Below, piece after piece: positions 2,829-28,550 of a stretch of 34,127 bases of DNA. Source of the DNA: Gammaproteobacteria bacterium (GTDB taxonomy: Bacteria; Pseudomonadota; Gammaproteobacteria; Ga0077536). The notes beneath the pieces were generated by a model. It saw nothing but the letters and a program-made list of their open reading frames with translations, ran no database searches and was not told where the DNA came from. Positions within the stretch are counted from its first letter, which is position 1. Each line of letters begins with the position of its first letter. The translations under genes and the position numbers were made by a program. The stretch lies in contig JAUIFX010000024.1 in the NCBI GenBank assembly GCA_030429865.1, forward strand, positions 1 through 34,127, read 5' to 3'.

Positions 2829-3302
2829 TCAGATGCTGTGCGTGCCGTGGCCGCCGTCGGCGGACTGCACGTCGAGCAGGCGCTCGATGCGGCGTGCGGC
2901 GCGCTCGCAGTCGTCGAGGCTGGTAAACACGCGGAAGCGCAGACCGAGCGAGGGACGTTCGCCTTCGACCTCCGCGAGCACCGCGCGGGTCAGCGCGCTG
3001 CAGGATTCGGTCATGTGCGCTTCGGCGTCGAGCAGTGCCGGGTCGGCATCGCCGAAGATCGAGAGCAGGGGATAGCGGTCGAGCAAGGCGTCGGCCACGC
3101 GGCTCTGGTAACGGAACACCTGTTCGGCACGCGACGCCTTGGGCTGATCGATGGTGGCGGCGGGTAGGGGCAGCGTCGCGCATCCGCTGCCTGCGGCGGC
3201 AAGGACCAGGCCGACTGCCGCGGCCTTCACCCGGTCAAGCGCCTTGAGGCGGCCGGCAAGCCGCGCGTGGCGCGGAATTTGTCTGCTGCTCTTCTTGAGC
3301 AT
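2829..3302 (-). CDS. Putative lipoprotein of unknown function
   Basis: 157 residues. After a basic N-terminus there is a hydrophobic stretch, AAAVGLVLAAAGSGC, with Cys41 in a loose lipobox. The rest is soluble and helix-rich, with a C-terminal segment FRVFTSLDDCERAARRIERLL. The ATG at 3302 has GAGG six bases upstream. A GTG at 3230 would give a shorter, more typical lipoprotein signal (VKAAAVGLVL...) and is a real alternative. I recognise no family. It is preceded by about 245 bases without a gene and followed by a 154-base gap before the EthD-like gene on the same strand. Confidence 0.6.
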   Translation of the reverse strand: MLKKSSRQIPRHARLAGRLKALDRVKAAAVGLVLAAAGSGCATLPLPAATIDQPKASRAEQVFRYQSRVADALLDRYPLLSIFGDADPALLDAEAHMTESCSALTRAVLAEVEGERPSLGLRFRVFTSLDDCERAARRIERLLDVQSADGGHGTHSI

Positions 3303-3548: not shown

Positions 3549-5741
3549 TCACCGCCGCGGGCCGCCGCGGCGCAGCTCGGCGACGAGCGTCTCGTGCGCC
3601 CGCGTGTTGCGCCGCGGCGTCAGCGGTTGCCCCAGGTGCGGCCACAAGCCGTGCCGGATGGGCTCGGGCAGCACGTTCTCGAGGTATTCGAGGGCGGTCC
3701 CCCGGATGCCGCGGTCGGAGCTGAACACGGCGCGGAAGGACAGCCGCAGCGCGTCGCGGTCGAGTACCAGGCTCAACAGCGTGAACACGTGCTCGAGGCT
3801 GTAGTCGACGCGCATGCCGCTGTCCGCGGCGACGGCGTCTTCGCCCTGCATGACGTCGTCGACGCGGATGTCGCGTTCGGCCCATTCGCGTGCCGGCACA
3901 CCGACCTCGCGGGCGCACGCGGCGTACACGCGTTCGCTGTCGATGGCCAGGCCCGGATCGCGTCCGAGCATGCGCGACAGCGCCCGCGCGCTCGAGTAAC
4001 GCACGTTGAACTCGGTGTCGTCGAGACCGTGCAGCAAGGCCTCGACCACGCGTGGTTGCGGCGACACTTCGAGCACGCTCGGCAGTCGCTGGCGCGCGAG
4101 CAGCGGGACGTCCGGATCGAGCAGCGCGTCGGTCAGCGTGCCGACGCACTGCGGCACGATGAAGCGCAGCTCCGTGCGCGCAAGGTCGGCGAGCGCGTCG
4201 ACGGCCAGCATCGGCACGACGAACGGCGCCAGGCGCGCATCCATGAAGGCCCCTTCGAGGCAGGCACGCACGCGCGCGCCGTCACCAGAGCTGAGTGCGG
4301 CTACCGCGCGTGCCAGGTCCGCGCTCGGTCCGCCCGGCGGCGCCACGGTGTCCGGATGCGCCGGCAGCGCGTGGTCGCTGTCGCCGCGCGCTTCGCGCTG
4401 CGCCTCGATGCGCGCCAGCAACAGCTTGCGCTCGGTCGACGCGGAGGCTTCGGCGAGCGTCTGGCGGGTCGTCGCGTCGACGATCTCGTCATCGGCGATC
4501 GAGATCAGGCCGTCGCGCAGGTTGTCGGCGAGCTGGGCGACGTAACCCCGGTAGAGGCGTCCGACCACGACCAGCGTGAGCACGGCGACCCCCAGCGCGA
4601 CGACGATCACAATCAGCGAAGGCAGCTCGGGCAGGAGCGCGAGCAGGCCGAGCACGATACCGCCGCCGATGACGTCGCCGAGGCGGTCGGAGGCGACGTC
4701 GATGAAGGATTTCGTCGGCCGCTTGCGCATCGGTGGCAGCGGCGTGTAGAGCAGCTCGAAGGCCGAACGGAAAAACGAGTTCTGCACGACCATCTGGCCG
4801 CCACGCAGCAACACCACGGTCCACAGCCGCAGCGCGAAGACGTTGAGCAGGCCGGCGGCGATGACGACGATCGGCAGCGTGGCGAGCGTCGCGCCGATGC
4901 CGAAGCGGTTGAGCAGGCGCGGGCCGGCCAGCGACTGCACCGCGAACGTGACGACGCCGGCGATGGCATAGAAGCGGCCGAACAGGCCGACCAAGGCGGC
5001 TTCGTCGCTGAGCATGCGCGCGGCCTCCGCCTTGAACGCGTAGTCGACCAGCGCGGCGAGCACCGCGACCAGCGTCATGAGCAGCCCCATCAGCGTCAGG
5101 TAACGGTGGCGGAACAGCAGGCCGAGCCCCGACTCCACTTCTACCTCGACCGCCTGTCCGGCTGCCGGCGCCGACGCGCGGCCGATGCCGCGCACGGCCA
5201 GTGCACAGGCCAGGTGCAGACCGCCCAGGACCACGATCATCGCGCGCGCATCGAGCATCGCCGCGACGCGGTCGGCGAGCAGCCCGCCAATCACGCCGCC
5301 GAGCGTGGCCGCCGCGGCGACCTGGGCGATGGTGCGCTTGGCGGTGTGCGGGTCGAAGCGCTCGTTGACCACCGACCAGAAGCCCGAGATCAACACCGCG
5401 CCGAATACCGCCATCTGCAGGTACAGCGTGAGCGCGGCCAGCCCCGGCTGCGCCGCGTAAAGCAGCCAGCTACCGACGAACAAGGTGGCGCTGAGGAGAA
5501 ACGCCAGCGGCACCACGCGCGAGGGACCGAAGCGCGCCAGCAGGCGCGACATCACGATCACCGCGAGCATCGAGAGCAGCGCCGCGACGATGACCATCTT
5601 GGGCAGCTGGGTCACGTCGTAGTGTGAGAGGAATACGGCGTCGCGGGTCGCCTTGCCGCCGACCTGGTGCGCGATCATCAGCGTCGCCGAGACCAGCGCG
5701 AAGGCGGTGGCGTAGCGGGTACTGGCGGAGGCTGGGGTCAT
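3549..5741 (-). CDS. ATP/ADP-translocase (NTT/TLC)-type MFS transporter with HEAT-like C-terminal domain
   Basis: About 730 residues from ATG 5741. An in-frame ATG at 5807 would add 22 residues; neither has a good ribosome site, and I prefer 5741 because membrane segment 1 follows at once. The first ~430 residues form about 12 membrane spans. GGKATRDAVFLSHY in the first loop resembles the TRDxxFLS loop of bacterial NTT/TLC-like carriers, which exchange nucleotides or related molecules in characterised members. The last ~290 residues are soluble, with helical repeats such as LLHGLDDTEFNVRYSSARALSRML that look HEAT-like. It is the last gene of a leftward operon, 119 bases after the VWA gene (53 if the longer start is used). 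The transported molecule is unknown, and the soluble tail may be a protein-binding platform. Confidence 0.7.
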   Translation of the reverse strand: MTPASASTRYATAFALVSATLMIAHQVGGKATRDAVFLSHYDVTQLPKMVIVAALLSMLAVIVMSRLLARFGPSRVVPLAFLLSATLFVGSWLLYAAQPGLAALTLYLQMAVFGAVLISGFWSVVNERFDPHTAKRTIAQVAAAATLGGVIGGLLADRVAAMLDARAMIVVLGGLHLACALAVRGIGRASAPAAGQAVEVEVESGLGLLFRHRYLTLMGLLMTLVAVLAALVDYAFKAEAARMLSDEAALVGLFGRFYAIAGVVTFAVQSLAGPRLLNRFGIGATLATLPIVVIAAGLLNVFALRLWTVVLLRGGQMVVQNSFFRSAFELLYTPLPPMRKRPTKSFIDVASDRLGDVIGGGIVLGLLALLPELPSLIVIVVALGVAVLTLVVVGRLYRGYVAQLADNLRDGLISIADDEIVDATTRQTLAEASASTERKLLLARIEAQREARGDSDHALPAHPDTVAPPGGPSADLARAVAALSSGDGARVRACLEGAFMDARLAPFVVPMLAVDALADLARTELRFIVPQCVGTLTDALLDPDVPLLARQRLPSVLEVSPQPRVVEALLHGLDDTEFNVRYSSARALSRMLGRDPGLAIDSERVYAACAREVGVPAREWAERDIRVDDVMQGEDAVAADSGMRVDYSLEHVFTLLSLVLDRDALRLSFRAVFSSDRGIRGTALEYLENVLPEPIRHGLWPHLGQPLTPRRNTRAHETLVAELRRGGPRR

Positions 5742-5860
5742 CGCTGGAATCGCCGCGGTGGACGTCGGCGCTACGGCGCGGCGACGAATGAAAGGCCCGC
5801 CTAGCATACTGCGAATCGACGGCTCGAGGCGGCCGGGCGTGGCCCGGCCGCCCGCGCCGC

Positions 5861-7087
5861 TCAGTGCCGTGCCTCGGCTTCGTAATGCAGGCCGACCTCG
5901 GCGGCCTGGCGGCGCACGGTATCGTAGAGCTTGTCGTCGAGCGAAGCGCCGTGGCTACCGCGTGTCTCCAGTTCGGCGGCGATGTAGGCATCGCGCTTCG
6001 CGGCGAGATCCGCGATCGACGCCTTGAGCTCGGCGCGTCTGCCGGCCTGCTCGGCGACGTGGGCCCGGCGCTCCTCGGCGCTCATCGCGGCGAGCGGCGC
6101 CGGCAACGCCTCGGCCGCGACGGTGTCGAGCGCGACGCGCCCGCTCGTCACCGCCTCGACCAGTTCGTCCTCACCGGCGAAGCTCGCATCGCCCGCGGCG
6201 CTCGTGTTGAACAGGGCGCGCCGGGCCAGCGCCTCCGGTGCGGCGGCCGCGTGCAGCTTGGCCGTGGCACGCTCCTTCGCGGCAGCGCGCTCGCGCGCGG
6301 CGCCGGCGCCGAAGAACACGCGCGTCGCGTCCATCTCGGCGGCGAGGCGGCCGAGTTCGGCATCGAACGGCGTGCTCACGGCAACCGCACCGCCGTTCTG
6401 GCCGACGGCGATGTAGTCGCCCTGGGCGAGCGTGGCGATGTGCTGCCACACGCGTGCCGTGTCGTGCTGGCTGCCGCACTGGATGGCGTTGACGACGATG
6501 CCGCGCGCGCTGGCGAGCGCGACGATCTCGGGATAGCGACGTTCGCCCTGGTAGTCCATGTGCGGCGGGGCGTCGCCGACGAGGAAGACGACCCGGTAGA
6601 CGTTGTCGTCATCGCTCCAGCTCATGCGTTCGACCGCCTCCGCCAGGGCCTGGTTGACGGCTTCCGGACCATCGCCGCCGCCGCTGGCGCGGAAGTCCAT
6701 CAGCGCGGCGTACATCGAATCGAGATCGCTCGACAGGTCGACCACGCGGGTCACGTACTCGTCACCGCGATCGCGATACGCGACCAGGCCCATGCGGATC
6801 TCGGGCGCCGGATCGGCCTGCGCCATGGATGCCGCGATCGACCAGATCTTGTCTTTCGCCGCGTGGATCAGTCCGCCCATCGAACCCGTGGTGTCGAGCG
6901 CGAAGACGACCTCGATGCGCGGCCGCTGTCGTGCCACGGAGGGTGCCGGCCGTGGCGTGACGGTCGCTGCGCCAGGTGTGACGGGCGTGGCCGGTGTGGC
7001 GCCGGCGCGGCTGGCGAGACCAGGATAGAGGACCACGGCCGTCGCGGTGGCGCAGAACAGGGCAAGAGCGGGAAGCGTGTGTTTCAT
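5861..7087 (-). CDS. Secreted von Willebrand factor A (VWA) domain protein
   Basis: 408 residues. A signal peptide or N-terminal anchor (MKHTLPALALFCATATAVVL) is followed by a Pro/Ala/Thr-rich linker to about residue 52 and then a VWA domain. The metal-ion-dependent adhesion motif DTTGSMG starts at Asp65, with further features GLVAYRDRGDEYV, SGGGDGPEAVNQAL and VFLVGDAPPHMDY. After about residue 255 the protein is Ala/Glu/Arg-rich and probably helical. VWA domains bind protein partners through a divalent metal; with a signal sequence this one acts in the periplasm or at the membrane. The gene sits 29 bases after the small membrane-protein gene, in the same operon as a PspA-like protein, which suggests a job in envelope surveillance or complex assembly. 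Confidence 0.8.
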   Translation of the reverse strand: MKHTLPALALFCATATAVVLYPGLASRAGATPATPVTPGAATVTPRPAPSVARQRPRIEVVFALDTTGSMGGLIHAAKDKIWSIAASMAQADPAPEIRMGLVAYRDRGDEYVTRVVDLSSDLDSMYAALMDFRASGGGDGPEAVNQALAEAVERMSWSDDDNVYRVVFLVGDAPPHMDYQGERRYPEIVALASARGIVVNAIQCGSQHDTARVWQHIATLAQGDYIAVGQNGGAVAVSTPFDAELGRLAAEMDATRVFFGAGAARERAAAKERATAKLHAAAAPEALARRALFNTSAAGDASFAGEDELVEAVTSGRVALDTVAAEALPAPLAAMSAEERRAHVAEQAGRRAELKASIADLAAKRDAYIAAELETRGSHGASLDDKLYDTVRRQAAEVGLHYEAEARH

Positions 7088-7116
7088 GATCGATGTCTCC
7101 AGTGTGATGAATGCAA

Positions 7117-7665
7117 TCAGGCGCCGCGTTCGAGCCGCGCGAGGGCAGCCGCGGCCGTGGCGCGGGCGCGCGCGAGGTTGTCGCTAGGCCGGCAGCCAGG
7201 CGCCGCGCGCCCCGGCAGGCCGGCGAACGACGCCTGCACGAGGAAGAAGCACCACGCCGCGAGCAGCACGCTGCCGGTGTGGCGGAAGGCCGCGCACGAG
7301 GCGGCGACGGCGACACCGCTCAGGGCGAGATCGAGGACGCCGGCGAGCACGCCGTGGTGATGGAACAGCACGCGCAGCAACCACAGCAGGAGCGCGTGCG
7401 CGGCGACGAGCAGGGCCGGATGCGGTGCGGCGGCCCACAGTGTGAGCGCGGCAATACTCCAGGCGAGGGCGACGACGACGCGCCCCGTCGAAGTCGCGCT
7501 GCGCGCGATCAGCCAGCAAGCACAGGCTGCCGCGGCGAGCGTGACGGCAAGCGCGAACGCCGTGCCCGCGGGAGCCAGCAGGCGCGACATGAGGTACGTC
7601 GCGGCGCTGCCGGCGGCGAGCAGCGCGGCCATGCCGACGCTCTCGGCAAAGCCGACGCGGCTCAT
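7117..7665 (-). CDS. Small multi-pass membrane protein in the PspA-like/VWA operon
   Basis: 182 residues, mostly hydrophobic: SVGMAALLAAGSAATYLM, TAFALAVTLAAAACACWLI, VVALAWSIAALTLW, ALLLWLLRVLF, LAGVLDLALSGVAVAASCAA and VLLAAWCFFLVQASFAG give five or six spans, followed by a short basic tail. Its ATG overlaps the stop of the PspA-like gene by four bases (ATGA), so translation is probably coupled. I recognise no family. Its place suggests a membrane anchor or partner for the PspA-like and VWA proteins, but that is inference. Confidence 0.7.
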   Translation of the reverse strand: MSRVGFAESVGMAALLAAGSAATYLMSRLLAPAGTAFALAVTLAAAACACWLIARSATSTGRVVVALAWSIAALTLWAAAPHPALLVAAHALLLWLLRVLFHHHGVLAGVLDLALSGVAVAASCAAFRHTGSVLLAAWCFFLVQASFAGLPGRAAPGCRPSDNLARARATAAAALARLERGA

Positions 7666-8195
7666 GTCCGCTGCTCCCGGCGCTGCTGCTTCTCGTGCAG
7701 CAGGGCGATGTCGATCTCGGCGGCGCTCGGTGTCGTCGCCACGATCGTGTCGGCGGCCGGCGCCGCCGCCGGCTCGCTCAACGCCGCGAGGCGCGCGCGC
7801 AGCGCCGTCAGTTCGGCGCGGGTCGCGGCTTCGCTCTCGGCGAGTTCCGCGCGGGCGGCGGCATGCCGCTCGCGCGTGTGAGCGATGTCCTCGCGGCGGC
7901 GCGCGTGCTCGAGTTTTCGCCGTACCAGGTCGCGTGCGAGCGCGTCCTCGTTCACCGCGAGACAGCTATCGAGTTCGCCATCGAGACGGGCGAGGGCGTC
8001 GGCGAGATGCGCGTCCTCGCGGGCGAGGGCATCGTCGGCGGCGCCGAGCGCACGCGCGCGTCCGGCCATCGCCACGAGTTCCTGTTCCATGTCGCGCAGC
8101 GCCTGGCGCGCGAGCAGGGCCGGCTCCTCGATACGGTCGAGCAGGGCGTTGAGATCGGCGCTCAGGAGGCGCGCGAAGCGGTTGAAAAGGGGCAT
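7662..8195 (-). CDS. PspA/IM30-like coiled-coil protein
   Basis: 177 residues from the ATG at 8195, chosen because GAGGAG lies 10 bases upstream; the frame is open further upstream but that part lies in the promoter region. The N-terminus PLFNRFARLLSADLNALLDRIEEP, then ALRDMEQEL, follows the amphipathic helix and first hairpin helix of PspA/IM30 proteins, and the rest is one long Ala/Glu/Arg coiled coil to about residue 140. PspA-type proteins assemble on damaged inner membrane. This one is shorter than the usual ~220 residues, ending in a Pro/Ala-rich tail (SEPAAAPAADTI), and lacks the last helices. It is the first gene of the leftward operon, divergent from a two-component system. Confidence 0.75.
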   Translation of the reverse strand: MPLFNRFARLLSADLNALLDRIEEPALLARQALRDMEQELVAMAGRARALGAADDALAREDAHLADALARLDGELDSCLAVNEDALARDLVRRKLEHARRREDIAHTRERHAAARAELAESEAATRAELTALRARLAALSEPAAAPAADTIVATTPSAAEIDIALLHEKQQRREQRT

Positions 8196-8389
8196 GTCCG
8201 GTTCTCCTCGTGTCGATGACGTGACGACGGGAGACAGCCTGCCGGCGTGTGCCGCGGCGGATAAGACACGACAACGTAAAAACTGCGCGCAGCGATTTAC
8301 GAAACATTTACAAGCGCGAGCGGCACGGCCGTGGATAATGTCGCGACGAGCCTTGCTGCCCCGCACCGCCCCCAACACCCCTGTCTGCC
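8196..8389. promoter_or_regulatory. Divergent promoter region between PspA-like operon and two-component system
   Basis: 194 bases with a lower-GC core. Rightward, GATAAT at 8334-8339 is a plausible -10 for the regulator gene, without a good -35, which fits dependence on an activator bound at the repeats just upstream. Leftward, TTGTCG and TTATCC-like hexamers around 8255-8275 are weak candidates. Confidence 0.45.
8295..8311 (+). promoter_or_regulatory. Direct repeat ATTTAC spaced 11 bp, OmpR-family type binding box
   Basis: ATTTAC occurs at 8295-8300 and again at 8306-8311, exactly one helical turn apart. This is the layout used by OmpR/PhoB-family regulators, and an OmpR-type regulator gene starts 78 bases downstream. 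The box ends 22 bases before the -10, near the -35 region, as expected for an autoregulated promoter. Binding is inferred. Confidence 0.5.
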
Positions 8390-9109
8390 ATGCGAGACGA
8401 CACCCGAGCCGCCAAGCGTCGCCTGCTGATCGTCGAGGACGAGGCCGCCATCCGCGACGGCCTCGTCGACGTGTTCGTCTACCACGGCTACGACGTCACC
8501 GCCGTCGCCGACGGCGAGGCCGGCCTCGCGCAGGCGCGCCGCGGCCGCTTCGATCTCGTGCTGCTCGACGTCATGCTGCCCGGGCTGGACGGCTTCGCGG
8601 TGTGCGAGGCTATCCGCGAGCACGACCGCCGGCAGCCCATCATCATGCTCACCGCGCGCGTCGCCGACGACGACATCGTCAACGGCCTCAGGCTCGGCGC
8701 CGACGACTACGTTGCCAAGCCGTTCGGCGTGCAGGAACTGGTGCTGCGCGTCGAGGCGGTGCTGCGCCGCGTGCACGGACCGGAGGAAGCGGCCGGCACG
8801 CTGCTCGCGATCGACGACACGGCGGTGCTCGACTGCGCCAACCTCGCCGGCACCATCGACGGTGTGACGGTGTCGTTCACGCGCCGCGAGACGGACATCC
8901 TGCGCTACCTGCACGGCCACAGCCGCCGCCCGGTGTCGCGCGAGGAGCTGCTCGCCGAAGTCTGGGGCTATGCGCGCGAACTCGATCTCGAAACGCGCAC
9001 CGTCGACATCCACATCGCCAAGCTGCGGCGCAAGATCGAGCGCGAACCGCGACAACCGGCACGGCTGCTCACCGTGCGCGGCGCTGGTTACCGCCTGGTG
9101 ACCGCGTGA
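8390..9109 (+). CDS. OmpR-family response regulator
   Basis: 239 residues. The receiver domain (about 11-125) has the acidic pair in LLIVEDE, the phosphorylated Asp60 in LLDVMLPGLDG, MLTAR and Lys110 in VAKPFG. The C-terminal winged-helix domain (about 140-238) has FTRRETDILRYL, VSREELLAEVWGY, TRTVDIHIAKLRRKIE and TVRGAGYRLV, the OmpR/PhoB pattern. The sensor kinase gene follows after 55 bases. It probably controls the divergent PspA-like operon and its own gene through the repeats at 8295-8311. Family assignment is firm; targets are inferred. Confidence 0.93.
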   Translation: MRDDTRAAKRRLLIVEDEAAIRDGLVDVFVYHGYDVTAVADGEAGLAQARRGRFDLVLLDVMLPGLDGFAVCEAIREHDRRQPIIMLTARVADDDIVNGLRLGADDYVAKPFGVQELVLRVEAVLRRVHGPEEAAGTLLAIDDTAVLDCANLAGTIDGVTVSFTRRETDILRYLHGHSRRPVSREELLAEVWGYARELDLETRTVDIHIAKLRRKIEREPRQPARLLTVRGAGYRLVTA

Positions 9110-9164
9110 ATAGCGACGTCCGTGGCGGCGCCCCCGTCGCCCGCGGCCGCGGGGCGCCGGGGGC

Positions 9165-11306
9165 ATGAAAGGGCTGCTTGCGATGCGCGCCGCGGGCCCG
9201 CGCGCCGAGCGCCGTCTGCGCCGGGCGCTCGGCCTGTTCTTTCTCGCGTTGGCCCTGCCCGCGGCCCTGCTCGCCTGGCGCGCCTACGGGCAGGTGCAGT
9301 GGCAGGTGTTCCACCAGTACCGCACGCTTGCCGAAGAATTCGCCGCGCGCATCGACGCGGCGCTGGCGCGCGCCGTCGCGCGCGAAGATGCGCGCGGTTT
9401 CGACGATTACGGTTTCCTCGTCGTCGATGCCGCCGCCCGCGGCGGACTCGCCCTGTCGCCGCTCGCGCGCTTGTCCGACGAGGCGCGCCTGCCCGGCCTG
9501 GTCGGTTACTTCCAGGTCGACAGTGCCGGTCGCTACACCTCGCCCCACGTGCCGCCGCCTGGCACGCAGGCGCGCGACTGGGGCATCGATGCGACCGAGC
9601 TGGCCCGTCGGCAGGCGCTGGCCGAGCGCGTGCGCGACCTGCTCGGCGGCCCCGCGGCGCAGCCGGCTGGGCGCGCCGAGGTCACCGCGACGGCGCGCGC
9701 GTCGACCGCGAGCGCGTCCGACGAGATCACCGTGATCGCGCGTGACGACACCCTGGCGGGCACGCATGACGCACTGCCCGCGGGCTCGACGCGCGGCAAT
9801 GCTTTCGAGCGCCTGGTCGATCCACGCCAGGCACGCCAGGCCGCGAGCGGGTCCTACGGCAAGCTCGCCGACCTCGAACTCGATTCGCGTCTCGAGCGCA
9901 AGAGTCGCGCGGTGACGCCACAGGCCGCGGTCGCGAGCGCACCGCGTGGCAGCCGCAAGGAGCAGGTCGCGATGCTCGCGCCGCCACCCCCGCCGGCCGC
10001 TGAGGAGGCGGCTTTCGCCGATGCGGAAGCGGACCGCGCCGGCGTCGCCGGGCCCGCGCCCGCCGCGGGTGCCGCAATGTCGAGCGACGCCGCGGGGCCC
10101 GCCCTCGAGGGCAGTTCGGCGGGCCTGCCGGCGCCGCGCGTCAGCCTGTTCGAGAGCGAGCTCGACCCGCCCGGGTTCCAGGTACTCGACGACGCCCATT
10201 TCGTCCTGTTCCGCAACGTCTGGCGTGACGGCGAGCGCTACGTGCAGGGTGCGGTGGTGGCACGCACACCGTTCCTCGCCGAGGCCATCACCGAACCCTT
10301 CCGCGCTTCCCTGCTGGCCGCGATGTCCGACCTCCTCGTGGCCTGGCAGGGCGAGGTGCTCGCCCTCGAACGCGCCGCGCCCGGTAATCGTCGCGGCTAC
10401 GAGCAGCTCGACGGCGAACTGCTCTACCGCACGCGCCTCTCCGCGCCGCTGTCCGGGCTCGAGCTGGTGTTCAGCGTCGGTGAGCTGCCGCTCGGCGCGA
10501 GCGGCGTGTGGCTCGCCTGGATCACGCTCGCCTTCGTGCTGGTACTCTGCGGTGGCTGTCTCGCCATCTATCATTTCGCCCGCGGTCACCTGCGCCTGCT
10601 GCGCCAGCAACAGGATTTCGTCGCCGCCGTCAGCCACGAGCTGAAGACCCCACTGACCTCGATTCGCATGTACAGCGAGCTGCTCGAGGCCGGCTGGGCC
10701 GACGAGGCGAAGAAGGCCGGCTGGTATCGTTACATCCGCGTCGAGGCCGAGCGGCTCTCGCGGCTCATCGCTAACGTGCTGACGCTGGCCCGCATGACGC
10801 GCGGCCAGGACACGCTGGAACTGCGCACGCAGCCGCTCGGCGCGCTGCTCGAGCGCCTCGGCGCGACGCTTGCCGCGCCGCTCAGCGCGGCCGATTTCAC
10901 GCTCACGCGCCAGGTCGATCCCGCGGCCGCCGCGGCGCTGGTCGCGGTCGACGAGGACGCGCTGACCCAGGTCCTGCTGAACCTCGTCGAGAACGCGATC
11001 AAGTTCACGCCAGCCGACGCGCCGCGCCGCGTCGAACTCGCGGCGCGCCCCGCCGGCGCCGACGCCGTCGCGGTGAGCGTGCGCGACCATGGCCGCGGCG
11101 TGCCGCGCGCGGCGCGACGCCGCATCTTCGATCTCTTCTACCGCCACGGCGACGAGCTGACCCGCGAGACCACCGGCACCGGCATCGGCCTGGCCCTGGT
11201 GCGCGAGCTCGTCGGCGCCATGCACGGCCGCGTCGAGGTCGCCGACGCCGCGCCCGGCGCGGTGTTCACCATCGTCCTGCCGCGTGCGCGAGCCGGTGAC
11301 GATTGA
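9165..11306 (+). CDS. Sensor histidine kinase with very large extracytoplasmic domain
   Basis: 713 residues. Membrane span 1 lies at about 22-38 and span 2 at about 447-472, enclosing roughly 400 periplasmic residues. The middle of that region (about 162-326) is Ala/Pro/Ser/Glu-rich, low in complexity and probably disordered. The kinase core begins with the H-box SHELKTPLTS (phosphorylated His491), then the N-box LLNLVENAIKFT (about 604-615), RDHGRGVP and GTGIGLALV (about 670-678). No HAMP domain is obvious between span 2 and the H-box. It partners with the OmpR-type regulator upstream. The signal sensed is unknown; the size suggests protein-protein sensing in the periplasm. Confidence 0.9.
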   Translation: MKGLLAMRAAGPRAERRLRRALGLFFLALALPAALLAWRAYGQVQWQVFHQYRTLAEEFAARIDAALARAVAREDARGFDDYGFLVVDAAARGGLALSPLARLSDEARLPGLVGYFQVDSAGRYTSPHVPPPGTQARDWGIDATELARRQALAERVRDLLGGPAAQPAGRAEVTATARASTASASDEITVIARDDTLAGTHDALPAGSTRGNAFERLVDPRQARQAASGSYGKLADLELDSRLERKSRAVTPQAAVASAPRGSRKEQVAMLAPPPPPAAEEAAFADAEADRAGVAGPAPAAGAAMSSDAAGPALEGSSAGLPAPRVSLFESELDPPGFQVLDDAHFVLFRNVWRDGERYVQGAVVARTPFLAEAITEPFRASLLAAMSDLLVAWQGEVLALERAAPGNRRGYEQLDGELLYRTRLSAPLSGLELVFSVGELPLGASGVWLAWITLAFVLVLCGGCLAIYHFARGHLRLLRQQQDFVAAVSHELKTPLTSIRMYSELLEAGWADEAKKAGWYRYIRVEAERLSRLIANVLTLARMTRGQDTLELRTQPLGALLERLGATLAAPLSAADFTLTRQVDPAAAAALVAVDEDALTQVLLNLVENAIKFTPADAPRRVELAARPAGADAVAVSVRDHGRGVPRAARRRIFDLFYRHGDELTRETTGTGIGLALVRELVGAMHGRVEVADAAPGAVFTIVLPRARAGDD

Positions 11307-11329: not shown

Positions 11330-11495
11330 TTAAGGAACCTCTGAACAAGTCATGACTCGGCACCTCGCGCGCGCGCTGTCCGATTTCCGCGTTGCGACGC
11401 TTCGCCATAGCCGGCTATGACGGGCGCGTCGCGCCTTGAACTCGAACAGCGCGAACACGAACTGCTCGGCCCAGACTTATTCAGAGGTTCCTTAA
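11330..11495. mobile_element. 166-bp MITE-like element with 22-bp terminal inverted repeats (IS5-like)
   Basis: The left end (11330-11351, TTAAGGAACCTCTGAA...) and the right end (11474-11495) are inverted copies matching at 21 of 22 bases. At the exact centre is the perfect palindrome CATAGCCGGCTATG (11406-11419), and the two halves pair imperfectly along most of their length, so the whole element can fold into one long hairpin. It has no gene. TTAA at both outer edges could be the target duplication. Size, TIRs and hairpin structure are those of a non-autonomous miniature element; the end sequence is reminiscent of IS5-family elements. It lies between the kinase gene and the nitrile hydratase operon and could also stop transcription. 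Confidence 0.8.
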
Positions 11496-11572
11496 TCGGT
11501 ACGAGCGAGTGGGCATGCCCGCGCGCCAGGCCGGAACTGCTTCCTGCCGGGCGCCGGCGAGCGGAGAGCACG

Positions 11573-12202
11573 ATGAACGGTATTCACGACATGGGCGGGC
11601 TGACCTGCTTCGGGCCCGTGGTGCGCGAAGTCGACGAACCGGTTTTTCACGACGGCTGGGAACGGCGCGTGTTCGCCGTCAGCATGCTGAGCGGCTCGGC
11701 GCTCGGCCCGGTCGATGCGTTTCGCCATGCCATCGAGCGCATGGATCCGCAGCACTACCTCGCTACCACCTACTACGAGCACTGGCTGGCCGGCATCGAG
11801 CGGCTGGCCGCCGAACGCCACCTGGCGGACGCTGCGCCAGCCGCGCGTACCCTGCAGGCCGAGCAACTCGATGCGATCGTCGCGCGCGGCGTGAGCGCCG
11901 CACGCGACAGTGATGACTTCCGCCCGCGCTATGCCGTCGGTGACGCGGTGGTGGCGAAGAACCTCAATCCGCGCGGACATACGCGCCTGCCCCGCTACGT
12001 GCGCGGGCGACGCGGCGAGATCGCTGCCGTGCGCGGCAACCACGTGTTCCCCGACACCGCGGCACACCTGGCCGGTGAGCATCCGCAGCCGCTGTACTCG
12101 GTGCGTTTCTCCGCACGCGAGCTGTGGGGACCGGACGCCCCGGCCAGGGACAGCCTCTACCTAGACCTGTGGGAGAGTTACCTGGAGGATCCCGCGCGAT
12201 GA
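11573..12202 (+). CDS. nthB: Nitrile hydratase beta subunit
   Basis: 209 residues beginning [16 protein letters not shown], the hallmark N-terminus of nitrile hydratase beta chains, followed by [28 protein letters not shown] and [12 protein letters not shown]. The C-terminal barrel contains [32 protein letters not shown], then [17 protein letters not shown] and DLWESYLE. Together with the alpha subunit it hydrates nitriles to amides in the cytoplasm and supplies part of the active-site cleft. GGAGAG lies six bases before the ATG. Gene order beta-alpha-activator with overlapping stops and starts matches the cobalt-type operons of pseudomonads. No amidase gene is in the window. Confidence 0.95.
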
Positions 12203-12855
12203 GCGAACCCCACGACGGACACACGCATGCCCACGACGCGCCGCCGAATCCCTACCTCGAGAAGCGCCGCAACGGCGAGGAAACGGCCGCGCTCGAGGCG
12301 CGGGTGAAGGCGATCGAGGACCTCGTTGTGAGCAAGGGCCTGGTGACCACGGCCGCGCTCGATCGCATCGTCGACATCTACGAGCACGATGTCGGGCCGC
12401 TGAACGGCGCCCGCGTGGTCGCCCGCGCGTGGACCGATGCGGCCTACAAGGCGCGCCTGCTCGCCGATGGTTCGGCCGCGATCGCCGAACTCGGTTACGG
12501 CGGCCTGCAGGGCGAGCACCTGGTAGTGGTGGAGAACACCGACACCGTGCACAACGTCGTCGTCTGCACGCTCTGCTCGTGCTACCCGTGGCCGGTCCTC
12601 GGTCTGCCGCCGTCCTGGTACAAGGACGCGCCTTACCGCTCGCGCGTCGTCATCGAACCGCGCGCCGTGCTGGCCGAGTTCGGAACCGAGCTCGATGACG
12701 ACGTGGAAGTGCGCGTGTGGGATTCGAGTGCCGAGATGCGCTACATGGTGCTGCCGCAACGGCCGCCCGGTACCGAAGGCATGAGCGAAGCCGCGCTCGC
12801 GGGCATCGTCACCCGCGATGCCATGATCGGCGTCACCCGCCTGGCCTCACCGTGA
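12199..12855 (+). CDS. nthA: Nitrile hydratase alpha subunit, cobalt type
   Basis: 218 residues. The metal-binding motif [10 protein letters not shown] gives ligands Cys123, Cys126 and Cys128; Thr in CTLCSC marks the cobalt (III) class, whereas iron enzymes have CSLCSC. A His-rich N-terminus (HDGHTHAHD), [48 protein letters not shown] and [17 protein letters not shown] follow the family closely. In the mature enzyme two of the cysteines are oxidised to sulfinic and sulfenic acids. The ATG overlaps the beta-subunit stop (ATGA), with GGAGG 10 bases upstream. Substrate range cannot be read from sequence. Confidence 0.96.
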
Positions 12856-13169
12856 GCACTCGGACCCGCCCCGAGGTCGCGGTCATGGAGGGCATGGCCG
12901 CGCTGCCGCGGCGCAGCGGCGAGCTCGTCTTCCACGACGAGTGGGAACGCCGCGCATTCGCCATCGCCGTCGCCCTGTGCGAACAGGGGCTGTACGACTG
13001 GGACGTTTTCCGGGCCCAGCTGATCGCGGAAATCGACCAGCTCGGCGCGGGCCGCGAGGCGTCGGACCCCGCGGCGCCCGGCTACTACGAGCACTGGCTC
13101 GCTTCGTTGGAGAAAGTGCTCGCGCGCCGTGGCATCGCGCCCGACGAAGACGCGCCGCCGGACGCATGA
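12852..13169 (+). CDS. Nitrile hydratase activator (beta-like accessory protein)
   Basis: 105 residues from the GTG at 12852, which overlaps the alpha-subunit stop as GTGA; an upstream extension of the frame would run inside the alpha gene. [32 protein letters not shown] and [19 protein letters not shown] resemble the N-terminal half of the beta subunit, as is known for the small cobalt-insertion and activation proteins (P14K/NhlE type). These form a complex with apo-alpha and exchange it into the enzyme. The overlap chain beta-alpha-activator shows one translationally coupled operon. Confidence 0.92.
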
Positions 13170-13311: not shown

Positions 13312-13854
13312 ATGCCATCGCCCCCGCTTGCCTTCTCCGCACGTCGCCGCCTGCTGCTGACCGGCGTTGCCGGCGCCCTCGCGGGCAGCCTCGACCTGAC
13401 GTTCAAACTGCCGGCCGCGGCCGCGTCACCGCCCGACCTTGTCGTCTACGATGCGCCTGCCGCGCGCACGCTGCTGGCCGTGTGCCGCACCCTGTTTCCG
13501 CACGACGCGCTCGGTGACGCACCCTACATGGAATGCGTGCGGGCCATCGACACCGCCGCCGCCGATGCCGGCTACCGGGCACGCATCGACGCGGCGCTGG
13601 CCAGGCTGCCGGCCGGCTTCGATGCCGCCGACCAGGCGGCGCGCGAGCGCGCACTGAGCGCGCTGCGCGACACGCCGGCCTTCGGCGCGCTGCGCGGCGC
13701 GGCCGGCAAGCTCTACCGCAACCCGGCGGTGTGGCCGCATTTCGACTATCCCGGCCCGTCGCTGGCTTTCGGCGGCTGGGTCGATCGCAAGATGCTCGAT
13801 CTCGACTGGCTGCCGGCGCAGACGCTGCAGCTCTCGGAGGTGACGTCGTCATGA
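13312..13854 (+). CDS. Gluconate 2-dehydrogenase subunit 3-like, Tat-exported small subunit
   Basis: 180 residues. The N-terminus SARRRLLLTGVAGALAGSLDL is a twin-arginine signal. The mature part, with ARTLLAVCRTLFPHDALGD, YMECVRAIDTAAAD, and the end YPGPSLAFGGWVDRKMLDLDW, fits the gluconate 2-dehydrogenase subunit 3 family. That subunit escorts a FAD-binding GMC partner, here the next gene, whose ATG overlaps this stop (ATGA). The folded pair is presumably exported together by Tat, since the large subunit has no signal of its own. A cytochrome subunit, usual in three-part enzymes, is not encoded here. Confidence 0.85.
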   Translation: MPSPPLAFSARRRLLLTGVAGALAGSLDLTFKLPAAAASPPDLVVYDAPAARTLLAVCRTLFPHDALGDAPYMECVRAIDTAAADAGYRARIDAALARLPAGFDAADQAARERALSALRDTPAFGALRGAAGKLYRNPAVWPHFDYPGPSLAFGGWVDRKMLDLDWLPAQTLQLSEVTSS

Positions 13855-15398
13855 GCGCGCGCTTCGATCTGAACGACGATTCGGTCGTGGTCGTCATTGG
13901 CTCGGGCGCCGGCGGCGGCACGCTGTCGGCAGCGCTGACCGCCGCGGGCGTCGACGTGGTGTGCCTCGAAGCCGGCGGCCAGGTCGCCATCGAGCAGGAC
14001 CTGCCGACCATGTACGGGCGCGTGAAGTGGGCCGACACGCGCTTGTCCGAGGGTGATCTGAACCCGGCGCTGCCGGTGTTCATCGCCAAGGCCGTCGGCG
14101 GGACGTCGATCGTGTGGGGCGGCGTGGCGCTGCGCATCCAGCCGCACGAATTCGCCGCGCGCACGAACTACGGCGAGGTGGCCGGCGCCGCGCTGGCCGA
14201 CTGGCCGATGAGCTATGCCGACATGGAGCCCTGGTACGCGCAGGCCGAACAGCGCCTCGGCGTGACCGGCACGCACGGTAATCCCTTCCTGCCCGATCAC
14301 AACAACGCCACCCTGCTCAAGCTCGGCGCCCGCGAACTCGGCTACGCACAGGTCTCGAACGGTCACATGGCGATCAACGCGGTCGATCACGACGGCCGGC
14401 CTGCCTGCCGCCAGTTCGGTTTCTGTGCCGGCGGCTGCGTGATCGGCGCGAAGTGGTCGTCGCTGCACGCGGAACTGCCCAAGGCGCGTGCGAGCGGGCG
14501 CTTCGAGCTGCGCGAACGCGCCATGGCGGTCACCGTCGAGCACGACGACGCCGGGCGCGCCTCGGGCGTGGTCTATGTCGATGCCGACGGCAAACGCCAA
14601 CGCCAGCGCGCGCGTGTCGTGTGTCTCGCTGCCAACGGCATCGAGACGCCGCGGTTGTTGCTGCTATCGGCCTCGGGACGCTTTCCCGACGGTCTCGCCA
14701 ATGGCTCGGGGCTGGTCGGCCACCATTACATGACCGACCTGCTGGGGCGCGCCATCGCGATCATGCCCGGGCGCGTCGACAACTACCGCGGCACCACCTA
14801 CTCGTCGCTCGTCGCCGACGACATGCGCCACGACCCGGCGCGCGGCTTTGTCGGTGGCTACCTGTTCGTACCGCGCGGCATCCACCTGCCGACCTACGTC
14901 AACGAGCCGCGCAGCGATGGCTGGGGCGCGGAGTACGCCGAAGTCATGGAGGCCTATCCGAACATGGCGTCGGCCGCGCTGATCGGCGAGGACCTGCCGG
15001 TGCACGCCAATCGCATCACGCTCGATGGCGAGACCCTCGACCAGTACGGCAACCCGGTGCCGGTGATCCACAAGCGCTACCACGACAACGATCGCGCCCT
15101 GATGGCCCACGGTCTCGAGCGTGCCGCCGACATCTATCGCGCGCTCGGCGCGACGCAGGTGTTCACGCGCGCGTCGAACACCGCCATCCACAACCTGGGT
15201 ACCTGTCGGCTGAGCAATGATCCGGCCGCGGGCGTGTGCAATGCCTACGGCGCCACGCACGAAGTGCCGAACCTGTTCGTCTCCGACGGCAGCCAGTTCG
15301 TCACTTCGGGCGCGGCACCGCCGACGTTGACGATCGCGGCGCTCGCGCTGCGCCAGGCGGACCACATCGTCGGCCAGCTGCGCGCAGGGACAATCTGA
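13851..15398 (+). CDS. GMC-family FAD-dependent dehydrogenase, large subunit
   Basis: 515 residues. The FAD-binding fold starts with VVVIGSGAGGGTLSAAL; AVGGTSIVWGGVALR is the second flavin motif; FCAGGCVIGAKW and ANGIETPRLLLLS follow; the C-terminal catalytic region contains IHNLGTCRLS with the probable catalytic base His447, and NLFVSDGSQFVTSGAAPPTLT. The enzyme oxidises an alcohol group, in relatives a sugar, sugar acid or other polyol, and passes electrons to the respiratory chain. It is translationally coupled to the Tat-bearing small subunit. Substrate unknown; the adjacent nitrile hydratase operon is a separate unit behind its own promoter gap. Confidence 0.9.
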   Translation: MSARFDLNDDSVVVVIGSGAGGGTLSAALTAAGVDVVCLEAGGQVAIEQDLPTMYGRVKWADTRLSEGDLNPALPVFIAKAVGGTSIVWGGVALRIQPHEFAARTNYGEVAGAALADWPMSYADMEPWYAQAEQRLGVTGTHGNPFLPDHNNATLLKLGARELGYAQVSNGHMAINAVDHDGRPACRQFGFCAGGCVIGAKWSSLHAELPKARASGRFELRERAMAVTVEHDDAGRASGVVYVDADGKRQRQRARVVCLAANGIETPRLLLLSASGRFPDGLANGSGLVGHHYMTDLLGRAIAIMPGRVDNYRGTTYSSLVADDMRHDPARGFVGGYLFVPRGIHLPTYVNEPRSDGWGAEYAEVMEAYPNMASAALIGEDLPVHANRITLDGETLDQYGNPVPVIHKRYHDNDRALMAHGLERAADIYRALGATQVFTRASNTAIHNLGTCRLSNDPAAGVCNAYGATHEVPNLFVSDGSQFVTSGAAPPTLTIAALALRQADHIVGQLRAGTI

Positions 15399-25549: not shown

Positions 25550-26599
25550 TCAGGGCCCGGATGCTGCCGCATCACGCTCGCCATCGACGAGCGTGATGTC
25601 GCGGCGGATTCGCGCTGCGGGTCCATCGCCCCGAACGCAGCCGGTCTCGCCGCCCTCGGTGTGCACGCCGACACGTGCGAGGAGCGCCGCGTAGTCGGGC
25701 ATCGTCTCCAGTGCGCGGAAGCGGTCATACAGGGGCACGAACAGTGCCGTGCCCGCGACGTGGTCGAAGGCCGCCACGAGAGCGGCACCGTCCGTGATAT
25801 CGCCATCGTCCAGGCAACATTGGCCGAAGCGCTGCATGACCCGATCCAGGCTGAGGGCCGGCGTGCCGGTGCGCAGGGCGAGGTCGGCCTCCAGAAAGTA
25901 CGCCACGCCGCTCCAGTAGACGCGCATGTAGCTCCCCAGCGCGTGCATGTCGCGGCTTGCCGCGGCCAGCGGGCGCCGCGTGGTCTCGCCGCTCATCGCC
26001 GCACTGCCGCGCGCGAAGCCGGCCGCGATCCGGCGCCATGCCATGCATTCGGTGATGAGGCCGTCGCGCGCCTGCAACAGGTGCTGGTAGTAGGTCGCGA
26101 GACCTTCGGACAGCCACACGTCGGTCTTCCCCGGGTAGGGGATGAACAGGTGGCTCAACTCGTGCGGCGCCGTCCAGTCGGTCAGAAAGCGCTCGAGCGG
26201 AAACGCCGGGTCGACCCAGAAATGCACGCCCTCGCGGCCGCGGCGCAGGACGCGCGCGAACGGCACCGGTTCGCCGGCACCCCGGCGCGTTTCGACGACG
26301 ATGCGGATGTCGTCGCGCGGCAGTTCGCCGTGCAGCATCCGCACCGTGCGCGCGGCGCGCCCGAGCCAGCGCGCCAGCTTGTCGCGCTCGGCGGCGCCGA
26401 GCCTGGCATCCCAGGTGACGTCGAACGCGCTGGCGGTCCCGGGCAGGCGCTCGGCGCTGGCCGGTATGGCAAGCGCGCAGAGCAACGCGCACAGCACGCG
26501 GCCGACTCGCGCCGGCCAGCCGGGCCGCAAGGGCGTTGCAGGTGAGGCGCGCCTGGTGATCACGAACGTCGAGTATAGCCGTCGCCGCGACCGGACCAT
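25550..26599 (-). CDS. Gluzincin-type metallopeptidase-like protein (HEXXH...E)
   Basis: 349 residues as drawn from ATG 26599. The signal peptide is GRVLCALLCALAIPASA. The zinc motif HELSH (His146, Glu147, His150) is followed 15 residues later by Glu165 in SEGLATYY, the arrangement of M1/M61-type gluzincins, with the peptidase otherwise small. YMRVYWSGVAYFLEADLALR and LDRVMQRFGQCC follow. All zinc ligands and the catalytic Glu are present. The start is uncertain: a -10-like TATACT lies inside the first codons (26577-26572), and GTG at 26563 would leave a tidier signal peptide. It is divergent from the PQQ dehydrogenase. Substrate unknown. Confidence 0.75.
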   Translation of the reverse strand: MVRSRRRLYSTFVITRRASPATPLRPGWPARVGRVLCALLCALAIPASAERLPGTASAFDVTWDARLGAAERDKLARWLGRAARTVRMLHGELPRDDIRIVVETRRGAGEPVPFARVLRRGREGVHFWVDPAFPLERFLTDWTAPHELSHLFIPYPGKTDVWLSEGLATYYQHLLQARDGLITECMAWRRIAAGFARGSAAMSGETTRRPLAAASRDMHALGSYMRVYWSGVAYFLEADLALRTGTPALSLDRVMQRFGQCCLDDGDITDGAALVAAFDHVAGTALFVPLYDRFRALETMPDYAALLARVGVHTEGGETGCVRGDGPAARIRRDITLVDGERDAAASGP

Positions 26600-26708
26600 G
26601 CGCGGGTGTCGCCGCTGCGCGCCGGTGTCGGGGCCGGCTGACCGTGGCCACGAGCCGGCGCGTTTTCTGGTATACCAGTCGCCTTTGTCCCGGGGAGTCT
26701 CCGTTTCG
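26600..26708. promoter_or_regulatory. Divergent promoter gap with palindrome CTGGTATACCAG
   Basis: A perfect 12-bp palindrome at 26667-26678 contains TGGTATACC, which reads as an extended -10 for the rightward PQQ dehydrogenase gene 31 bases further on. The symmetry may alternatively be an operator. No matching -35 is evident. Confidence 0.4.
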
Positions 26709-28550
26709 ATGATTGCATTCCGTTCGATCGCGCCGGCGCTCGCGCTCGTCGCGACCTTTGCCGCCCACGCCGAGAGCAGCGCGCCGGCCGATACCGACTG
26801 GCCGAGCTACAACCACAACGTGAACGGTCAGCGCTGGACCGCGCTGGACCAGGTTACCGTCGACAATGCCGCGCGCCTCGGCGAAGTGTGCCGGCTGCCG
26901 GTCGAGCAGGCCGGCGCGTTCCATACCGGCATCCTGCACATCGACGGCACGCTGTACTTCACCACCGCGACGGACACGCTCGCGGTCGACTCCGCGGATT
27001 GCACGCTGCGTTGGCGCCATCACTACGAGATCGCCGATCCGAGCGGCACGGCGCTGATGGTCAATCGCGGCCTGGCCTACGCCAACGGCCGCCTCTACCG
27101 CGGCACCACCGATGCGCGCCTGCTGGCCATCGACGCCCGCAGCGGCGAGACCGTGTGGCAGTTCCAGGCCGGCGATCCTCAGCAGGGCGAGTTCTTCAGC
27201 AGCGCGCCGCAGGTCTACCAGGGCCTCGTGATCATTGGCACGGCCGGTGGTGACTGGGGGATCCGGGGGCGCGTGATGGCCTACGACGCGGCGACCGGCC
27301 GCGAGGTGTGGCGCTTCTACACCATCCCGCGCGGCGACGAACCCGGTGCCGATTCATGGAAGAACGCCGACAGCGCACGCTACGGCGGTGGCGGGACCTG
27401 GTCGACGTTCACGATCGATCACGCGAGCGGCGAAGTGTTCGTGCCGGTCGGCAATCCCGCACCGGACCTGTTGCCCAGCCTGCGGCCCGGAGACAACCTC
27501 TACACGAACGCCATGGTCGTACTCGATGCCGCCAGCGGCGCGCTCAAGTGGTATCACCAACTGCTCGCGAACGACGGCCAGGATCTCGATCTCGGCGCCG
27601 CGCCGATGCTCTATTGGAACAGCGCCGGCGAGCCGATGGTCGCGATCGGCGGCAAGGACGGCTACGTCTACGGCGTCAACCGCGAAACCCGCGAGCGCGT
27701 GTTCAAGACCGCCATCACGACGATCAGCAACGCCGGTCTCGACCCGACCACGTCCGGCATCGAGGTCTGCCCCGGCGTCCTCGGTGGCGTCGAGTGGAAC
27801 GGTCCCGCGCTCGACAAGACCAACAAGGCCATCGTCGTCGGCAGCGTCGACTGGTGCAACGTGCTCAAGGCCGACGAGGGCTTCACCTTCAAGCCGGGCC
27901 AGCCCAACATGGGCGGGGTGTTCGAACTGGCCGAGGAGAGCCGCGGCTGGGTCGTCTCGCTCGATGCCGACATCGGCGCGGTGCGCTGGAAGCACGAGAC
28001 GGCTGCACCGATGGTCTCCGGCATCACGCCGACCGCGGGCGGCGTCATCTTTGCCGGCGACATGGGCGGCCGCTTCTTCGTGCTCGATGCGCGTGACGGC
28101 AGGCGCCTGTTCGAAGCCGACACCGGGGGCGCTATCGCCGGCGGCGTGATCACCTACATGCGTGACGGGCGCCAGTATGTCGCGGTGACTTCGGGCAACG
28201 TGTCGCGGCTGACCTTCGGCACCACCGGCAGCCCGACGCTGCTGCTCTATGCGCTCGATGCCGCGGGCGGCAGCGTGCCGGCGGCCGCGACCGCTGCGCC
28301 CGATGCGCCATTGCGCGAGCCCGACGCCGCGGCCGGCCGCACGCTGTTCGCGAAGGTCTGTGCGGCCTGCCATGGCGGCCGCGGCGAAGGCCTGTCCGGT
28401 CCGGCGTTGCAGGGTCTCGCCGGGCGCATGGACTTCGAGCGCACCGTCGAGTGGATCCGGAATCCCTCGGCGAAGATGCCGAAGCTCTACCCGGCGCCGC
28501 TCGACGCGCAAGCCGTGGCCGACGTCGCCGCCTACGTCCAGGGCCTGTGA
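26709..28550 (+). CDS. Secreted PQQ-dependent dehydrogenase with C-terminal cytochrome c domain
   Basis: 613 residues. Signal peptide (IAPALALVATFAAHAES), then a beta-propeller of PQQ repeats: DWPSYNHNVNGQRWTAL, GRLYRGTTDARLLAIDARSGETVW, GRVMAYDAATGREVWRF, MVVLDAASGALKWYHQL, GWVVSLDADIGAVRWKHE and FFVLDARDGRRLFEADTGG, each with the Gly-Trp-docking pattern. A DGQDLDLGAAPML segment may hold the catalytic Asp. The tail is a cytochrome c domain with haem-binding CAACH (Cys551, Cys554, His555) and probable axial Met590 in SAKMPKLY. It should oxidise an alcohol or aldehyde in the periplasm and pass electrons to haem. It is shorter than typical quinohaemoprotein alcohol dehydrogenases, and I see no adjacent-cysteine pair. 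Confidence 0.88.
   Translation: MIAFRSIAPALALVATFAAHAESSAPADTDWPSYNHNVNGQRWTALDQVTVDNAARLGEVCRLPVEQAGAFHTGILHIDGTLYFTTATDTLAVDSADCTLRWRHHYEIADPSGTALMVNRGLAYANGRLYRGTTDARLLAIDARSGETVWQFQAGDPQQGEFFSSAPQVYQGLVIIGTAGGDWGIRGRVMAYDAATGREVWRFYTIPRGDEPGADSWKNADSARYGGGGTWSTFTIDHASGEVFVPVGNPAPDLLPSLRPGDNLYTNAMVVLDAASGALKWYHQLLANDGQDLDLGAAPMLYWNSAGEPMVAIGGKDGYVYGVNRETRERVFKTAITTISNAGLDPTTSGIEVCPGVLGGVEWNGPALDKTNKAIVVGSVDWCNVLKADEGFTFKPGQPNMGGVFELAEESRGWVVSLDADIGAVRWKHETAAPMVSGITPTAGGVIFAGDMGGRFFVLDARDGRRLFEADTGGAIAGGVITYMRDGRQYVAVTSGNVSRLTFGTTGSPTLLLYALDAAGGSVPAAATAAPDAPLREPDAAAGRTLFAKVCAACHGGRGEGLSGPALQGLAGRMDFERTVEWIRNPSAKMPKLYPAPLDAQAVADVAAYVQGL

Follow-up and report, generated by a model that had tools for sequence, protein, structure and literature searches.

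A conserved five-gene locus suggests an overlooked PspA-type envelope module in gammaproteobacteria

Introduction

The partners of PspA are, to our knowledge, poorly known beyond a few model bacteria. A contig of a gammaproteobacterium (JAUIFX010000024.1 of assembly GCA_030429865.1, of which we analysed positions 1 to 34,127, a stretch of 34,127 nucleotides referred to here as the window) brings such partners into view: beside a PspA-like gene lie genes for a small membrane protein, a VWA protein and an NTT-type transporter with a HEAT-like tail and, on the opposite strand, a response regulator and a histidine kinase. The original prediction, made from the sequence, grouped these six genes as a possible undescribed envelope-stress module. 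Do they form one system, and what might it do? Here we report a conserved core of five genes, the kinase (HK) and response-regulator (RR) genes being divergent from pspA-MEM-vwa, so that the proposed module stands in 34 loci as a core with its own two-component system and the NTT-HEAT gene falls away as a member. The conserved architecture suggests a putative overlooked system for coping with envelope stress, and we favour, with a probability of roughly 0.6, a PSP-type envelope module that is self-contained, is controlled by its two-component system and has a VWA protein as periplasmic partner.

The genes of the locus

Gene calls and Pfam searches recovered all six predicted genes, which together with a small neighbouring gene and an intergenic site are arranged as follows:

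8195-7662 (-), PspA, a short PspA/IM30-family protein of 177 aa (PspA_IM30 match)
7665-7117 (-), MEM, a membrane protein of 182 aa without a Pfam family
7087-5861 (-), VWA protein of 408 aa with an N-terminal signal or anchor and a MIDAS-like DTTGS motif (VWA_4)
5807-3549 (-), NTT-type transporter of 752 aa with a HEAT-like tail (TLC); accessory at this locus
2829-3302 (-), small protein that by eye resembles a lipoprotein, encoded behind the NTT gene (tblastn matches in relatives); accessory
8276-8311 (+), operator-like site in the pspA/RR gap, with a conserved direct repeat
8390-9109 (+), RR, an OmpR/PhoB-type response regulator (Response_reg, Trans_reg_C)
9165-11306 (+), HK, a sensor histidine kinase (HisKA, HATPase_c)

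Domain assignments are clear for the regulator (Response_reg 103 bits, Trans_reg_C 80 bits), for the HisKA and HATPase domains of the kinase and for the VWA protein (VWA_4 48.2 bits, cut-off 27), which has a single N-terminal hydrophobic stretch at residues 7-25; PspA lies barely above its threshold (PspA_IM30 34.3 bits, cut-off 33.9). The start of pspA was placed at the ATG at 8195, behind GAGGAG, in preference to a longer GTG reading frame. As predicted, the first two genes share an ATGA (7662-7665), with the MEM start inside the pspA stop, and the regulator and kinase genes form a divergent pair on the (+) strand, opposite the pspA operon.

Elsewhere in the window, genes for the beta and alpha subunits of nitrile hydratase and for a further, short NHase_beta_N protein lie directly behind the kinase gene (11417-13166, (+)), with no match by tblastn in the other loci compared. 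The window further holds a GMC oxidoreductase (13533-15398, (+)), a PQQ-type dehydrogenase with a cytochrome c domain (26142-28550, (+)) and a DUF1329/LolA-like protein (5-1420, (-)).

Five genes share one order across families

Searching 96 relatives with the VWA protein gave matches in 33, many of which were weak; besides the window's own genome, 13 were followed, comprising 12 places of at least 53% identity (some partial) and one genome, G078, at 28%. A class-wide search returned 24 of 369 genomes at E ≤ 1e-25 and a search of the named collection eight loci, all of them MAG records. By best HMM matches, HK, RR, PspA, MEM and VWA stand in one order in 34 fetched loci, the window included, and 14 loci are arranged otherwise (L031, apparently the same contig as L018, is excluded from these counts). 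In 30 of 34 loci the PspA and MEM genes share 4 bases, in three they share 1 base and in one they lie 17 bases apart, with HMM-estimated starts and with L020 in place of L114 in this set.

Since the VWA gene led to all 33 loci besides the window, the order count is biased towards VWA, and MEM provides an independent check. A MEM profile matched 24 of the same 369 class genomes at E ≤ 1e-5, of which 22 are VWA genomes (Fisher p 5e-31, kinship ignored); VWA occurs without MEM in G193 and G199, and MEM without a VWA match in G069 and G208. In a phylum-wide sample of 398 genomes the window's own genome alone matched. The MEM genomes span 18 family codes, and those genomes, among them and the relatives, that have the full five-gene order span 15, besides the named relatives, which are MAGs labelled Woeseiaceae, Chromatiales, Gammaproteobacteria or Proteobacteria/Pseudomonadota together with one 'Flavobacteriales' contig bearing VWA only. 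The five-gene block is thus far above chance, and from its distribution we infer a module scattered among gammaproteobacteria. Full-text literature searches found no text naming the combination, in keeping with its description as an unnamed system.

The 14 loci without the full order fall into several kinds. Nine carry VWA alone (L016, L017, L038, L076, L077, L080, L081, L115 and L117), L117 being a contig end and L038 a 3.4-kb contig; two are cut by contig ends, L020 showing PspA-MEM-VWA and L072 MEM-VWA; the remaining three are L029, L116 (from G208) and L118 (from G069). L029 has a VWA fragment facing a C-terminal kinase fragment (7452-9134), with the three middle genes absent, and may be a module remnant or an assembly join. 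In L118 (3368-7609), from the one-contig genome G069, the operator and PspA are kept, HK, RR and MEM are frame-broken and VWA is lacking; this broken module could be the product of decay or of an assembly error, and the VWA protein appears dispensable there.

The NTT gene is an accessory neighbour

The sixth gene behaves differently. Its product matches Pfam TLC (36 bits, cut-off 21) and falls far below TIGR00769 (29.5 bits, cut-off 387); the predicted HEAT-like tail is weak, since HEAT_2 scores 19.4 bits against a cut-off of 27.7, so of the predicted fusion the transporter part stands over its threshold and the tail does not. NTT-HEAT fusions are known and widespread, with function unknown, in the parts of Major et al. 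2017 (PMC5381601) that we consulted; the protein here resembles them in apparently joining an NTT domain to a C-terminal HEAT-like part and differs in that this part lies under Pfam cut-offs and in that the gene neighbours the module in one small group only.

The NTT gene adjoins the module in 3 of 34 loci (the window, L018 and L019), or 3 of 30 where its position is visible, because the contig ends at or just behind VWA in L027, L028, L071 and L075, making absence there uninformative. NTT matches occur in 13 of 96 relatives, 12 of them strong, and 9 of the 12 lie away from the module. The gene is beside the module in the window's own genome, G001 and G007.

These data bear on the grouping of the original prediction, a six-gene nucleotide-transport stress system with NTT-HEAT at its core. 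In its favour, NTT follows vwa in the window's own genus and in G007, with the same small gene (2829-3302) behind it, which tblastn recovers at 83% identity in L018 and 58% in L019 and to which family-model searches assign no family. Against it stand the scarcity of the adjacency, the five genomes in which NTT and module occupy different contigs (G008, G009, G010, G016 and G026) and the four in which NTT is present with weak VWA matches only (G025, G028, G032 and G033). We therefore rejected NTT-HEAT as a core member and regard the six-gene system as very improbable; the common order holds for five of the six genes.

A conserved direct repeat in the divergent promoter

Between pspA and the RR gene lie GTAAA (8276-8280), 15 bases and then a TTTAC-N6-TTTAC direct repeat (8296-8311). 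The repeat is exact in 31 of 33 pspA/RR gaps, the other two (L068 and L074) carrying TTTAC-N6-GTTAC with one mismatch, and in 30 of 32 once the near-duplicate L018 is removed. Its orientation is constant and, among the 30 nonredundant loci with an exact copy, its distance to the pspA start ranges from 88 to 123 bases (median 97). The inverted half-site GTAAA stands about 14-15 bases ahead of it in aligned loci. Dinucleotide shuffles (both strands, 500 rounds) gave a mean of 0.012 loci of 32 and a maximum of one. The shared promoter region of the original prediction thus gains a conserved candidate operator.

Copies were also counted genome-wide. The 4.6-Mb genome of the window contains one exact repeat, and the reversed control occurs there twice. 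A 17-base form searched in 22 chosen module genomes gave 27 copies, 17 at the module, one before a solo VWA gene (G201) and nine elsewhere, with 12 for the reversed control. These genomes are 21 of the 28 with full order plus G026, with G078, G160, G218, G298, G323, G334 and G393 left out as presumed to be richer in A+T; in five of the 22 (G006, G122, G154, G201 and G245) the 17-base form does not pick up the site at the module itself. A wider regulon read from copies outside the module was rejected on these numbers (nine elsewhere, control 12, in the 22 genomes). A long operator pattern is found in 38 of 369 class genomes, namely in 22 of 24 MEM genomes and 16 of 345 others (Fisher 4e-23, kinship ignored). 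Class-wide its 40 sites compare with about 35 for the reversed control (hand count), so its frequency is not raised, and it is placement alone that is telling. The long-pattern match of G201 sits at the solo VWA gene. For operator matches in G084 and G388, which have no VWA match, no module gene was present in the fetched neighbourhoods (L119 and L120). In G193, where a kinase orthologue was not found, a solo VWA gene (L077) has an operator-like copy upstream in the opposite orientation.

Read on the opposite strand, the repeat is GTAAA-N6-GTAAA, which fits the box GTAAA-N4-8-GTAAA given for the envelope-stress regulator CpxR in the consulted part of PMC5063474. Another regulator, for example a CpxR, could read it. 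The site might be an ordinary CpxR box and the genes part of a general Cpx regulon, whose regulator would be either the RR, as a diverged form of CpxR, or a CpxR encoded elsewhere. The fit of the repeat and the OmpR/PhoB class of the RR speak for such an arrangement; CpxA/CpxR also share with the module a kinase with a periplasmic part. However, the RR scores 129 bits against the CpxR equivalog cut-off of 341 and the HK 95.8 against 486 for CpxA, and outside the module in the 22 genomes the repeat, counted with N6 spacing only, does not exceed its control. We consider a Cpx origin quite unlikely. The best NCBIfam match of the RR is RpaB, at 193.6 bits against a cut-off of 330; the cyanobacterial RpaB motif is HLR1, as described in the portion of PMC6331805 that we saw.

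PspA and its membrane partner

Built from 15 module PspA proteins, among them that of the window, a profile matched solved Vipp1/PspA structures over residues 1-151 (E 2.3e-13), which together with the Pfam match bears out the predicted PspA-like coiled coil. Structural matches to the module proteins stop at residues 151-155 of 177, and the C terminus is conserved but different. Given this end point and a PspA_IM30 score barely over the cut-off, membrane remodelling by the short form is not assured. We searched 24 genomes (22 of the 28 with full order, G069 and G208) for PspA_IM30 and PspC. The module copy is the only PspA_IM30 match in 15 and further matches occur in nine; in G007, G049, G160, G201 and G208 a full-length and much better match (E < 1e-38) coexists with the module. 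PspC is present in 3 of the 24 genomes and absent from the window's own.

MEM, encoded immediately downstream, matches no Pfam family in the window's protein, and 16 MEM proteins searched together gave four single matches at E 0.24-0.62. Neither LiaI/LiaF-TM nor Toastrack partners were among the Pfam matches of these proteins. Its model has six helices and a C-terminal helix (mean pLDDT 65), and a fold search returned no structural match (best E 0.53).

A kinase with a large periplasmic sensor

Hydrophobic stretches at residues 20-38 and 450-468 of the kinase leave about 410 residues between them (39-449), close to the periplasmic part of some 400 residues that had been predicted. The outer halves of this part are conserved; between them, at about 163-332, lies a variable insertion of low confidence. 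All 18 kinases compared keep the catalytic His491 and the N- and G-box residues that were checked, and the phospho-acceptor Asp of the RR is present in 33 of 34 aligned rows, the remaining row having a gap.

The sensor was modelled with a mean pLDDT of 57.7 and a pTM of 0.50. Foldseek gave no match at E 0.001 or better, the best being McpU and CqsR (E 0.014 and 0.022); in a second look at these matches the best Z was 10.3 over 182 residues (7k5n), and LuxQ chains were included. The 50 structural rows are mostly what we take to be dCACHE or tandem-PAS domains, and the periplasmic sensor models as dCACHE-like. Folds of the dCACHE type read small ligands and, in LuxQ, a periplasmic protein.

Module, solo and unrelated VWA proteins

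The metal-ion-dependent motif of the VWA protein is well kept, with Asp65 and Ser69 invariant in 14 of 14 proteins, in line with the MIDAS pattern DxTxS/DxSxS; the third-loop Asp172 occurs in 10 of 14, with Asn in four proteins of a second type (type 2). Against solved structures, the VWA profile gave one weak match (3rag, E 0.00083).

The gene also occurs on its own. Solo paralogues in G201 and G393, genomes that hold full modules as well (L074 and L073), have the operator directly upstream and oriented as for pspA, and the solo of G160 (L076) lacks it. In L080 the operator and the solo VWA gene of G201 closely follow the end of a gene for a short second histidine kinase (346 aa, 6006-7046). 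Solo relatives of about 40% identity with the module absent lie on Paracoccus and Ochrobactrum plasmids (L016 and L017).

Quick trees (SH-aLRT as the sole support; L018, L081, L117, L029 and L020 dropped) group the G201 and G393 solos with type-2 VWA proteins, those of the modules L030, L078, L079 and L114 (SH-aLRT 100, branch 2.25). The nearest kin of type-2 module VWA proteins in these trees are thus solo copies that carry the operator. In the kinase tree the same four modules also cluster, with a branch length of 0.25 and in the midst of ordinary module kinases, and the VWA in this slot therefore diverges far more than its kinase. A single origin of module VWA proteins against all six solos was rejected (p-AU 2e-38) because the solos L080 and L115 group with type 2; against L016, L017, L076 and L077 alone it was not rejected (p 0.62), which gives no support for type 2 having been recruited from beyond this VWA family. 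L038 was omitted from the topology test for its long branch.

A different VWA protein occupies the slot in G208 (L116): behind the operator comes a gene for a VWA protein of 491 aa, which goes undetected by the module VWA profile, and then PspA and MEM. On the RR side the contig breaks off, and a search of this genome, 90% complete, turned up no kinase orthologue at E ≤ 1e-60.

Could the five genes be historical neighbours that share a promoter and have no joint function? Solo VWA genes exist and the G069 copy has lost VWA, as such a history would allow, but order, overlap and operator are kept across 15 family codes and an unrelated VWA protein fills the role in G208, leaving this explanation barely credible.

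A closer competitor keeps the joint function and shifts its centre: the VWA protein would bind a periplasmic ligand and present its state to the dCACHE-like domain of the kinase, as LuxP does to LuxQ, with PspA-MEM as membrane-side output or feedback. It would account for the operator before VWA genes that stand alone in G201 and G393, for a VWA gene beside MEM in all fetched MEM loci but L118 (an unrelated one in G208) and for the LuxQ chains among the structural matches of the sensor. On the other hand, the VWA relatives L016, L017, L038, L076, L077 and L081 have no module genes in the fetched stretch, and L076 has a different two-component pair 3 kb away; VWA proteins of types 1 and 2 differ greatly while the kinases of the type-2 loci are ordinary module kinases, which is odd if both must fit; and the structural matches of the sensor are mostly small-ligand receptors by title. 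On balance we think this arrangement unlikely.

Comparison with known systems

PSP systems under two-component control, namely Bacillus liaIHGFSR and actinobacterial PspA-PspAA, are described in Ravi et al. 2024 (PMC11237479, consulted in part). Like them, the module joins a PspA-family protein and a membrane partner to an adjoining two-component system; unlike them, its MEM has no Pfam family, a VWA protein is present instead and the two-component system is divergent from the pspA operon. The terms 'vWA' and 'von Willebrand' are absent from the main text of that broad survey, as far as we consulted it, and a full-text search for PspA or phage shock with VWA, which mostly leaves out subscription papers, returned nothing relevant. 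Escherichia coli pspF-pspABCDE likewise sets a PspA-family gene beside a membrane partner and a divergent regulator gene, but the module's regulator is a two-component system rather than PspF, and PspC is as rare as noted above. In Pseudomonas aeruginosa bacABCDEF, a PspA-family protein is likewise encoded in an operon that does not resemble E. coli psp; this system differs in a DUF2170-type BacA and a proposed sigma-54 site, with VWA and a two-component system not mentioned in the part of PMC10948618 that we consulted. Anti-phage defence was rejected as a role, no PADLOC match being found for six proteins.

A proposed mechanism and its meaning

For the PSP-type module that we favour, we propose the following course. 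The kinase would detect a periplasmic signal through its dCACHE-like domain and phosphorylate the RR, which would bind TTTAC-N6-TTTAC in the divergent promoter and control pspA-MEM-vwa and probably its own operon too. The short PspA may assemble at the membrane's inner face, where contact with the six-helix MEM would hold or license it, and the anchored VWA protein would stand on the outer face, its metal-ion site binding a protein or wall ligand. That envelope stress would induce the operon is suggested by analogy, from the PspA family and the Cpx-like box.

We tentatively extend this proposal, as a possibility rather than an expectation: the VWA protein may be the usual outer-face partner of PspA, with MEM coupling the two, a slot filled by type 1, type 2 or the G208 VWA protein, and a dCACHE-like kinase reading the assembly. 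If true, this would amount to a trans-envelope arm of the ESCRT-III-like PspA machinery. In the module, PspA comes with a two-component switch of its own, a precise candidate operator, a new membrane-protein family and a VWA partner, and so a tie of PspA-type repair to the outer face of the membrane may be tested in one locus of about 6 kb.
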